DNA of 25,666 nucleotides from Hyphomicrobiales bacterium (GTDB taxonomy: Bacteria > Pseudomonadota > Alphaproteobacteria > Rhizobiales > Xanthobacteraceae): assembly GCA_016201085.1 (NCBI GenBank), contig JACQDO010000163.1, positions 1-25,666 on the forward strand. The letters are read 5' to 3'. Every line of letters begins with the position of its first letter. Positions within the stretch are counted from its first letter, which is position 1. Below are positions 15,622 to 19,134 of the stretch, in pieces. The translations under genes and the position numbers were made by a program. The notes below the pieces were generated by a model. That model saw only the letters and a program-made list of their open reading frames with translations, searched no databases and was not told the origin of the DNA.

Positions 15622-15718
15622 CCTCATCCTGAGGAGCGCTCCAAAGGAGCGCGTCTCGAAGGATGGGGCCGCCCTCGTCCTTCGAGACGGGCGCTTCGCG
15701 CCCTCCTCGGGATGAGGG
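15622..15718. repeat. Head-to-head doublet of the CCTCATCC palindrome family (REPIN-like)
   Basis: Two palindromic units lie in opposite orientation. The left unit (15622-15668) reads CCTCATCC TGAGGAG, a GCGCTCC/GGAGCGC stem, TCTCGAA GGATGG. The right unit (15672-15718) reads CCTCGTCC TTCGAGA, a GGGCGC/GCGCCC stem, then TCCTC GGGATGAGG. Each unit is an imperfect hairpin with an asymmetric internal bulge (TGAGGAG opposite TCTCGAA), which gives it direction. The pair as a whole can also fold into one long hairpin. No gene lies between the units. Confidence 0.85.
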
Positions 15719-15762: not shown

Positions 15763-15885
15763 CCGCCCACTTCTCACGAAGAGACGTGAAATCCAGCTTT
15801 GCCGCCCGGCCCTAGAGAGGCCGGAGGCCCCCGCCCGACAGCGCAATGCGCCCTCGGGCGTTGAAGCGTTTGAGGCCCTTTCTTT

Positions 15886-17709: not shown

Positions 17710-18205
17710 ATGTCTCTCGTCATCCGCATGGCCCGCGCCGGAACCAAGAAGCGGCCGGTCTATCACATCGTCGTCGCCGACTCGCGCTCGCCGCGCGACG
17801 GCCGCTTCATCTAGCGGCTCGGCTATTTCAATCCGCTGATGCCGAAGGAAAAGACCGAGCGGCTCAAGTTCGATATCGAAAAGGCACAGGCCTGGATGAA
17901 GAATTGGTCATTTCAATCCGCTGCTGCCGAAGGAAAAGACCGAGCGGCTCAAGCTCGATCTCGAGAAAGTGCAGGCCTGGATGAAGAAGGGCGCGCAGCC
18001 GTCCGACCGCGTCATGCGCTTCCTCGATGCCGCCGGCATCGCCAAGCGCGAGAAGCGCAACAATCCGACCAAGGCGATCCCGCGCAAGGAGCGCAAGGCC
18101 GCGGCCGAAGAAGCCACCAAGGCCAAGGAAGCCAGCGCCGCCGCCGCCAAGGCCAAGGCCACCGAGAAGGCCGCCGCCGACAAGGCTGCTGCGGCCGCGA
18201 GCTGA
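17710..18205 (+). pseudogene. rpsP: 30S ribosomal protein S16, disrupted by a stop codon and an 85-bp duplication
   Basis: ATG 17710 begins a normal S16 ([20 protein letters not shown]), which is part of the 30S body and normally essential. Codon 35, a Glu (GAG) in relatives, is TAG at 17812-17814. The sequence then continues in frame as [20 protein letters not shown] to an 85-bp divergent repeat that shifts frame by one; the second copy restarts at [19 protein letters not shown] and runs to the stop at 18205. Removing 85 bases gives a 137-codon frame, 136 residues with the TAG as its only defect. The C-terminus has an Ala/Lys-rich tail longer than in most S16. Position after ffh is canonical. 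As written only a 34-residue fragment is made. I think sequencing or assembly error is more likely than true loss, unless another copy exists. Confidence 0.85.
17825..17994 (+). repeat. 85-bp divergent tandem duplication inside rpsP
   Basis: Copies 17825-17909 and 17910-17994 align without gaps and show 7 mismatches in the first 79 bases; the last 6 bases differ. Both copies translate, each in its own frame, to credible S16 sequence (FNPLMPKEK versus [22 protein letters not shown] versus [13 protein letters not shown]). The changes are mostly conservative, as between alleles of related strains. Confidence 0.9.
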
Positions 18206-18216
18206 TCGTTATGATA

Positions 18217-18265
18217 GCCTCGTCCTGAGGAGGCCGGCGCTGCCGGCCGTCTCGAAGGACGAGGC
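18217..18265. repeat. Palindromic repeat, left boundary of the GIY-YIG gene
   Basis: Outer arms GCCTCGTCC (18217-18225) and GGACGAGGC (18257-18265) are perfectly complementary. Inside lies a 7-bp stem GGCCGGC/GCCGGCC with a 3-base loop, separated from the outer arms by the asymmetric elements TGAGGA and TCTCGAA. The right arm carries AAGGA and GAGG 7-16 bases before the nuclease ATG, so it probably acts as its ribosome binding site. It starts 11 bases after the rpsP stop. Confidence 0.88.
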
Positions 18266-18271
18266 GTTCAC

Positions 18272-18607
18272 ATGGGCGCTTGGCTTTACATTCTTCGCTG
18301 CGCCGATGGCGCATATTATACGGGTACGACGCGCGCCGAACTTGAACAGCGTGTCGCCGAGCATCAATCTGGGCATTTTTCCGGATTCACATCAAACCGA
18401 CGGCCCGTTGTGCTCGTATTCAGCGAGTTCTTCGACCGGATTGTCGACGCTATTGCCGCAGAACGTCAAATCAAAGGCTGGTCCCGCGCCAAGAAGGAAG
18501 CGCTGATGGCGGGCGATTTTCAGCGTATAGGGCAGTTATCGAAACGACATACGCCCATCCGACCTCATGGTTCGAGACGCGTCGCTGCGCGACGCTCCTC
18601 ACCATGA
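18272..18607 (+). CDS. Small GIY-YIG nuclease (UPF0213-like)
   Basis: A 111-residue single-domain GIY-YIG protein. The signature tyrosines are in [15 protein letters not shown] (Y6 and Y15/Y16, with G18). The expected catalytic Arg is R27 in [13 protein letters not shown], with H31 nearby. The metal-binding Glu is E64 in [19 protein letters not shown], so the nuclease centre looks intact. There are no extra DNA-binding domains. Residues 98-111 and the TGA are encoded by the right-hand palindrome, and the protein would naturally end near residue 95. The gene sits between rpsP and rimM, which are normally adjacent, bracketed by inverted copies of one repeat family. Its stop overlaps the rimM start as ATGA. 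Members of this family have no firmly known role; involvement with the flanking repeats is my inference. Confidence 0.85.
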
Positions 18608-18610
18608 GGT
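18562..18610. repeat. Palindromic repeat, right boundary of the GIY-YIG gene, contains the rimM start codon
   Basis: Outer arms ACCTCATGG (18562-18570) and CCATGAGGT (18602-18610) are perfectly complementary. The inner stem is GCGTCGC/GCGACGC with a TGC loop, and the asymmetric elements are TTCGAGA on the left and CTCCTCA on the right. It is thus the same family as 18217-18265 but in inverse orientation. It encodes the last 14 residues and the stop codon of the GIY-YIG protein and the first two codons of rimM. Confidence 0.88.
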
Positions 18611-19134
18611 CTACCGCGGGAAACAAGATCCGCGTCGCCCGCATCGGGGCGGCGCATGGCGTTCGCGGCGAGGTGAGACTGTGGTCGTTCACCGCGGAGC
18701 CGCTGGCCGTCGCCGATTACGGCCCCTTGGAAACCGCAGACGGCAAACGGCGTTTCGAGATCGTGACGCTGCGGCCGGCCAAGGACCATCTGGTGGCGCG
18801 GCTCAAGGGCATCGACGACCGCAACGCGGCCGAGCGGCTCACCAATCTCGATCTGTTCGTGCCGCGCGAACGGCTGCCGGCGATCGAGGAAGCCGACACG
18901 TTCTATTATGCCGATCTGATCGGCCTGGCGGCGGTGAACGAAACGGGCGCCGCGCTCGGCATCGTTGCCGCGGTACATAATTTCGGCGCCGGCGATCTGA
19001 TCGAGATCGCACTCGCCGGCGGCGGCGAACCGTTGCTGCTGCCGTTCACCGACACGGTGGTGCCGAAGATCGATCTTAAGGCGAAGCAGATCGTCGTGGT
19101 GCGGCCGTTCGAGATCGAAGCGCGGGACGAGTAG
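18604..19134 (+). CDS. rimM: Ribosome maturation factor RimM
   Basis: A 176-residue 16S rRNA processing factor that binds S19 and helps mature the 30S head. The N-terminal RimM domain has [22 protein letters not shown]; the C-terminal PRC-barrel region has [31 protein letters not shown] and [15 protein letters not shown]. The only plausible start is ATG 18604, because the conserved [11 protein letters not shown] begins nine codons later and no earlier in-frame start exists without crossing the hairpin. That ATG lies in the 3' arm of a palindrome and lacks a Shine-Dalgarno, so initiation probably depends on coupling from the overlapping GIY-YIG stop. trmD starts two bases after its TAG. Confidence 0.94.

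Follow-up and report, generated by a model that had tools for sequence, protein, structure and literature searches.

In a window of 25,666 nucleotides (the whole stretch of DNA analysed here, contig JACQDO010000163.1 of a Hyphomicrobiales bacterium, GenBank assembly GCA_016201085.1), a small GIY-YIG nuclease gene is flanked by two palindromic hairpins. The unit and its hairpins recur in further copies, the association of enzyme and hairpin extends through the enzyme's clade, the type of repeat is specific to the enzyme, and a single genomic site is found both with and without a unit. This layout is far from chance. We consider it likely that the hairpins form a REP-like repeat system mobilised by the GIY-YIG nuclease, an analogue of REP-RAYT systems that relies on an unrelated class of enzyme.

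Structure of the gene-bearing unit

Direct reading of the window confirms that the GIY-YIG gene lies between two hairpins. The left hairpin (18217–18265, plus strand, orientation '>') has the form CCTCGTCC TGAGGAG-stem-TCTCGAA GGACGAGG and folds with −41.6 kcal/mol; the right hairpin (18561–18611, minus strand, orientation '<') folds with −35.5 kcal/mol, RNA parameters being used for both. They have TGAGGAG...TCTCGAA in common and are oppositely oriented, and their stems are different. The nuclease gene (18272–18607, plus strand) runs from an ATG at 18272 through 111 codons to a TGA ending at 18607. Its left neighbour is rpsP. Its right neighbour is rimM (18604–19134, plus strand), whose present start codon is situated within the right hairpin, the ATG being contained in the CCATGAGG arm; the nuclease and rimM genes overlap in the sequence ATGA at 18604–18607. 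The original prediction of a nuclease gene inserted between rpsP and rimM and bounded by palindromes of opposite orientation is borne out by this reading, with the qualification that rpsP is broken. The right hairpin does not lie outside the gene, however: it encodes the C-terminus of the nuclease, roughly its final 14 residues, together with the stop codon.

In the assembly, codon 35 of rpsP (17710–18205) is an in-frame TAG, and a near-tandem repeat of 79 nt (91%, with a spacing of 85 nt, 17825–17988) shifts the frame. Matches to rpsP in the genome are confined to this locus, and the broken gene represents either a misassembly or a real lesion. Two Rfam matches above the gathering score were also noted in the window, one to the BjrC174 sRNA (1487–1713, 67.7 bits) and one to the ffh sRNA family (15817–15868, 49.6 bits).

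Judged by its domain and active-site residues, the sequence of the window enzyme fits a GIY-YIG nuclease. Its Pfam match to PF01541 scores 55.4 bits against a cut-off of 22.6, and Tyr6, Tyr16, Gly18, Arg27 and Glu64 are invariant in 14 kin sequences; Tyr6, Tyr16, Arg27 and Glu64 are presumably the GIY-YIG active-site residues. The dN/dS ratio is 0.05–0.18 where computable (dS is saturated in several pairs), which indicates purifying selection on the gene. The predicted model is GIY-YIG-like with a mean pLDDT of 80.7, the hairpin-encoded tail being of low confidence, and is nearest to UPF0213 proteins and then to the branched-DNA nuclease Slx1, with weak E-values of about 0.01–0.1. One search gave 3032 homologues, the names seen among the best 120 being only GIY-YIG nuclease or putative endonuclease, and NCBIfam gave no match for any of four proteins. 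An anti-phage defence reading was set aside, since no PADLOC defence family matched the one protein searched at E ≤ 0.001.

The hairpin family in the genome

The genome is a draft of 526 contigs and is 88.6% complete. The unit of hairpin, gene and hairpin measures 395 bp, and a second full copy is found at C380:2704–3098, with an EamA-like gene on one side and priA on the other (identified by reading the translations). This copy matches query bases 16–410 with 80% identity (E = 1.7e-97), and the ends of the unit therefore coincide with the hairpins.

At E-values of up to 10, the unit or its hairpins have 84 matches in the genome. The pattern TGAGGAG-N(8–38)-TCTCGAA occurs in 68 copies and its reversed control pattern in none. 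Most copies form inverted dimers that have the order and orientation of the unit and carry no gene. Dimer order was read in 33 stretches, namely the window, C380 and a further 31 places. Among pairs no more than 60 nt apart, 24 show the order > <, with 16–32 nt between motifs; the order < > is found at two places in the genome. One of these gene-less, REPIN-like dimers of the unit's hairpin family lies in the window itself, upstream of the SRP54 (ffh) gene (15622–15717, no strand assigned), and has a cruciform-like fold of −83.7 kcal/mol (RNA parameters). The same preference is seen in relative G033, where doublets with starts within 70 bp, counted by hand among 66 listed of its 80 places, comprise 22 of the type +−, two of the type −+ and none with both hairpins in the same orientation; its gene-bearing unit is also +−, with 311 nt in between.

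The inner stem reaches 5 bp or more in 77% of 65 hairpin units (63 distinct), compared with 2.7% after shuffling. These units contain 26 different 5-nt arms, and their outer arm alternates between CC/GG and GG/CC (37 and 21 of the 65, respectively). Since the stems vary while stem pairing and motif are retained, it is structure and motif that are conserved, and the stem sequence is free.

Microhomology deletion was considered as the source of the gene-less dimers and dropped; their spacers are palindromic and not clearly remnants of the gene. Elsewhere in the genome, a partial relative of the nuclease gene at G000:C212:6193–6369 (L011, L138; query residues 42–98, 67% identity) adjoins hairpins of the TGAGGTGC...CCTCGAA form and is a decayed copy.

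Association of the enzyme with motif hairpins

Clade A comprises 15 places in 13 genomes with a protein match of E < 1e-27, in a search of this genome together with 59 relatives; below it follow a partial copy at 7.7e-18 and then the next match at 1.5e-11. A motif hairpin is present on both sides in 12 of the 14 clade A loci from relatives (window excluded). For named genomes, the best 80 of 332 confirmed loci were analysed, which include Rhizobium, Bradyrhizobium, Methylobacterium, Microvirga, Reyranella and others, and the motif was searched within 250 bp in the form of the window genome and its nearest variant. Both sides carry the motif in 34 of these best 80 of 332 loci versus 3 of 7306 control positions; for at least one side, the counts are 58/80 and 122/7306. 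The p-values for this contrast are not exact, since the controls, taken from the same 80 loci, overlap one another and orthologues occur among the loci. Palindromes therefore flank these genes more often than random positions, as had been predicted, and the clade usually carries them.

The nearest left and right motifs of the 34 loci are arranged >< in 16, <> in nine, << in five and >> in four cases; at some loci of the clade, just one flank carries hairpins. Thus, the terminal-inverted-repeat layout proposed from the window is real there but does not hold as a universal rule (>< in just 16 of 34); the association of hairpin and enzyme is general, and the strict inverted-terminal layout is not. 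In several Bradyrhizobium loci, the hairpin is placed at an identical distance from the gene.

The motif-aware test was added alongside a plain alignment of left and right flanks, which gives an inverted match in 69 and a direct match in 55 of the best 80 of 332 loci at p ≤ 0.05, against a null of at most about 60 positions each. This plain score passes just five of the 14 clade A loci from relatives; it misses most of clade A because the two hairpins there differ in stem. Cross-locus pairs were too conservative as a null because relatives share repeats.

Clade A is patchy, being found in 9 of 35 other genomes of the same genus. This distribution bears on the idea that the enzyme merely resolves cruciforms or hairpins of the repeats during replication while the repeats themselves move otherwise. 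Such a role would suit the purifying selection on the gene and a predicted fold resembling Slx1, albeit with weak E-values. Nevertheless, we judge it distinctly improbable: an enzyme acting in trans has no need to be flanked on both sides by its substrate, and the gene's patchiness also speaks against it.

Sibling enzymes and their palindromes

A bracket test was applied to 60 of about 105 listed places (14 clade A and 46 others), hand-picked mostly from the top of the list; among the others, most flanks of the 17 non-clade loci L031–L047 had already been viewed. Against a null drawn from elsewhere in each stretch (up to 20 kb), an inverted bracket is found in 37 of the 46 sibling loci at p ≤ 0.05 and in 30 at p ≤ 0.01, and a direct one in 15. 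On a fixed score, 36 of the 46 siblings are bracketed and 10 are not, versus 0/30 cold-shock genes from the same genome pool and 0/20 UvrC genes (1/20 UvrC genes at p ≤ 0.05). Examples of sibling palindromes are CGTCATGGCCGGGCTTGTCCCGGCCATCCACG, CGTCATTCCGGCGAAAGCCGGAATCCAG and CGTCATCGTCCGCGAAGGCGGACGATCCAG. In a phylum sample of 120 genomes, 15 of 50 small GIY-YIG genes are bracketed according to the inverted score (row L249 is misplaced). Eight of nine plasmid loci, including those of Planktothrix (Cyanobacteriota) and Spirosoma (Bacteroidota), score above the highest of 65 control positions; the Rhizobium tumorigenes locus does not.

In a tree of 132 domains and 74 columns, in which many forks are open and the bracket label (inverted or direct) is crude, all 80 bracketed rows fall within one set of 99, while 0/28 of the other small GIY-YIG rows, which we take to include YhbQ-like ones, are bracketed. 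The SH-aLRT support of the set is 92, below the tool's star. Its 19 unlabelled rows include the window enzyme and five close relatives, in which the motif is visible and the stems differ.

These controls also bear on a more ordinary explanation, namely that the hairpins are terminators or mRNA ends located near a small stand-alone gene by chance or for regulation. The hairpins do adjoin gene ends and could terminate transcription, and at the A1 loci they overlap the nuclease stop codon and the rimM start. However, no such bracket surrounds any of the 30 cold-shock or 20 UvrC genes on the fixed score or any of the 28 other small GIY-YIG rows of the tree, control positions of the same stretches give the 3/7306 cited above, the repeat type is enzyme-specific (see below), and the whole unit has a second copy. 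Control genes and positions largely refute this explanation, to which we assign only a very slight chance.

Many of the sibling palindromes resemble CGTC-tagged REPs, which were defined by Di Nocera et al. 2013 (PMC3733652). According to that paper, these repeats occur mostly in alphaproteobacteria and mostly as head-to-head dimers, apparently without a dedicated transposase; they are defined by a CGTC/TGTC/CCTC tag, AT first stem pairs and a CCA-like tail, and consist of an 8–9 bp stem, a 4–5 base loop and a short unpaired tail. The carriers named there include Azospirillum lipoferum, Sinorhizobium meliloti and Neisseriae (dRS3). The likeness covers several features: CGTCAT...ATCCA is present in many sibling-enzyme palindromes, head-to-head dimers and alphaproteobacterial hosts are shared, and A. 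lipoferum, S. meliloti and Neisseria have GIY-YIG genes beside such palindromes. In A. lipoferum the gene is situated between sufB and sufC; by eye, CGTC-like palindromes adjoin the GIY-YIG gene in Sinorhizobium and in Neisseria (CGTCATTCCCGC...GCGGGAATCC). Also by eye, the sibling palindromes fit the definition in many but not all cases; CTTGTCCCGGGCGC..., for example, falls outside it. The window family (CCTCATCC-TGAGGAG...) possesses the tag (CCTC/CGTC) plus AT but differs from the repeats described there by its longer stem and internal asymmetric motif, and it has no clear tail.

Repeat type and copy number

Repeat types were compared across 34 loci, which remained of 42 bracketed ones once probable duplicates of the same site had been taken out. 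Between genomes, repeat similarity rises with protein similarity (rho 0.47, p = 0.0005, 538 pairs, 34 loci; rho 0.51 without duplicate removal). Repeats at the nearest enzyme in another genome are more similar than those at another GIY-YIG gene of the same genome, with medians of 36.5 versus 14.75 (p = 7e-5, n = 20). The type of repeat tracks the enzyme more than it does the genome.

The number of motif copies is higher where clade A is present, in a test that pools two motif forms and whose statistics ignore kinship: within the genus, nine genomes with clade A contain 21–115 copies and 26 without it 0–104 (p = 0.0016), and in other families, three with clade A contain 14, 50 and 63 copies versus 0–5, and in one case 45, in 21 without it (p = 0.0037). 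Four genomes of the genus (G016, G013, G001 and G032) have 70–104 copies and no clade A gene at E ≤ 1e-5. The repeats therefore persist or spread without the gene, and these four genomes may have lost the enzyme recently or may possess a different carrier.

Sites with and without the unit

Including the own genome, 6 of 30 rpsP–rimM junctions in the genus contain the unit and 24 do not. Both palindromes accompany the gene in 6/6 cases; a gene at this junction devoid of palindromes, the pattern named as contrary to the original prediction, was not found. The six filled junctions probably represent one inherited insertion. In these, the ATG of rimM is supplied by the hairpin arm; some unfilled junctions (G018 and G020, for example) read by eye as giving rimM a GTG start. 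The comparison had been expected to yield the exact ends of the insert, but it did not, because the flanks are too diverged. By eye, the junctions of G002, G008, G013 and G026 (L306, L324, L303, L327) carry unrelated repeats, a CGTC-type dimer in the case of G002, and the junction looks like a favoured site.

At an fnrL/response regulator site on Sphingobium plasmids, a sibling unit is present in seven records and absent from four. In an alignment of four filled and four unfilled records, the filled ones read GTCACCCCGGGCTTGACCCGGGGTCCCGC-gene-GCGGGACCCCGGGTCAAGCCCGGGGTGAC, with a different loop base in TomTYG46, and group together by flank identities. Unfilled TomTYG64 has GTCACCCCGGGTCAAGCCCGGGGTGAC, in which the left hairpin's left half is fused to the right hairpin's right half; TomTYG74 has a mutated form of this single palindrome, and TomTYG72 and TomTYG65 have unrelated sequence. 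Both insertion into a palindrome and collapse between 8-bp direct repeats (ACCCCGGG) fit these alleles.

The gene might accordingly be a passenger, a homing-type nuclease gene that inserts into palindromes as its own cutting sites while the repeats spread by other means. Homing by small GIY-YIG nucleases is known, the two unfilled alleles with a single palindrome look as if the gene had split it, and repeat-rich genomes without a clade A gene exist. We regard this as unlikely, though worth keeping in mind: a passenger need not make the repeat type follow the enzyme or the copy number rise with the gene, collapse between the direct repeats explains the Sphingobium pattern equally well, and according to PMC3733652 no other carrier is known for CGTC REPs.

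Searches among close relatives of Rhizobium gave no usable empty site, and in three other Shinella records the element is absent at the site, without exact ends. No target-site duplication was seen at the compared sites, which offered no exact strain-level empty site, and the sequences compared gave no excision, insertion or cutting, exact ends or target-site rule.

Proposed mechanism and comparison with known systems

By analogy with REP-RAYT systems, we infer as the most likely mechanism that the enzyme recognises, cuts, copies and moves the hairpins. The basic form of the family is an inverted dimer of two hairpins, the spacer of which is here occupied by the nuclease gene. The enzyme would recognise the hairpin by its constant asymmetric motif, the stem being free, once it is extruded as a single strand or cruciform, and might cut it near the base or the loop. 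Cutting would then initiate copying into new sites, both of gene-bearing and of gene-less dimers. Because the activity of a GIY-YIG domain is confined to DNA hydrolysis, the joining step would fall to the replication and repair machinery of the host. Gene-bearing units would be the autonomous form and gene-less dimers would move in trans, and sibling enzymes may serve other palindromes, CGTC-tagged REPs among them.

A wider proposal, to which we give about an even chance, is that a GIY-YIG clade distinct from the other small GIY-YIG proteins is the missing mobiliser of CGTC-type REPs and related palindromes in several phyla: each subclade would recognise its own hairpin, insert into palindromes and, by a hydrolytic mechanism that resembles homing and needs no transposase, copy both itself and the gene-less dimers. 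CGTC-type REPs are widespread in alphaproteobacteria, and the paper in which they were defined (PMC3733652) left them without an enzyme. If it is small GIY-YIG nucleases that move them, an issue pending since 2013 can be tested directly, and many genes named just GIY-YIG nuclease or putative endonuclease gain a role. Transposase-free, nuclease-driven spread of repeats would mean that the problem solved by RAYTs has been solved a second time, independently.

The REP-RAYT analogy with a different enzyme class, drawn in the original prediction, holds and reaches beyond the window to the sibling enzymes. Both systems have short tagged palindromes in many copies and inverted dimers, one to few enzyme genes flanked by repeats in varied arrangement, and a repeat type specific to the enzyme. 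The arrangement at clade loci is varied, and PMC3733652 says likewise of the REPs flanking RAYT genes. RAYTs, however, are IS200/IS605-like HUH/Y1 tyrosine transposases, whereas Pfam finds only GIY-YIG in the window enzyme, and their REPs bear a GTAG tag, whereas the window family starts with CCTC/CGTC and has no basal GTAG in the copies read. The window system is thus not a RAYT by its defining features but is RAYT-like in layout.

Other systems are similar in part. A gene-bearing unit with many gene-less relatives and shared ends recalls MITEs with their autonomous transposon, but here there is no transposase, the ends are hairpins, and no target-site duplication was found. Comparison with a classical TIR transposon shows inverted hairpin ends in the window, a varied arrangement elsewhere and no duplication at the compared sites. 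Small GIY-YIG nucleases occur in homing, I-TevI being an example, and share with the present enzyme the tie to a mobile unit and possibly, at the Sphingobium site, insertion inside a palindrome; the difference is that no intron or intein is involved here and that the companion is a dispersed hairpin family. UPF0213/YhbQ-type proteins (1zg2, 1ywl) agree in size and domain and are the nearest solved structures, but the 28 tree rows outside the bracketed set are without a bracket. Among the papers listed by searches of open-access PMC, judged by those listings, none joins bacterial GIY-YIG genes to REP, REPIN, RAYT, dRS3 or MITE repeats, and a word search of the 2025 RepRanger paper (PMC12306157) gave no match for GIY.

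Finally, some gene-less dimers show additional features. The outside flanks of L111, L124 and L125 look complementary by eye, without statistics (e.g., TCTAATCCG ... CCGATTAGGA), as if these dimers had landed centrally in a palindrome or terminator that was already there. In L128 (about 642–777) and L132 (about 9–151), the spacer contains ∼80 nt of other palindromic sequence, as if another repeat were nested there.
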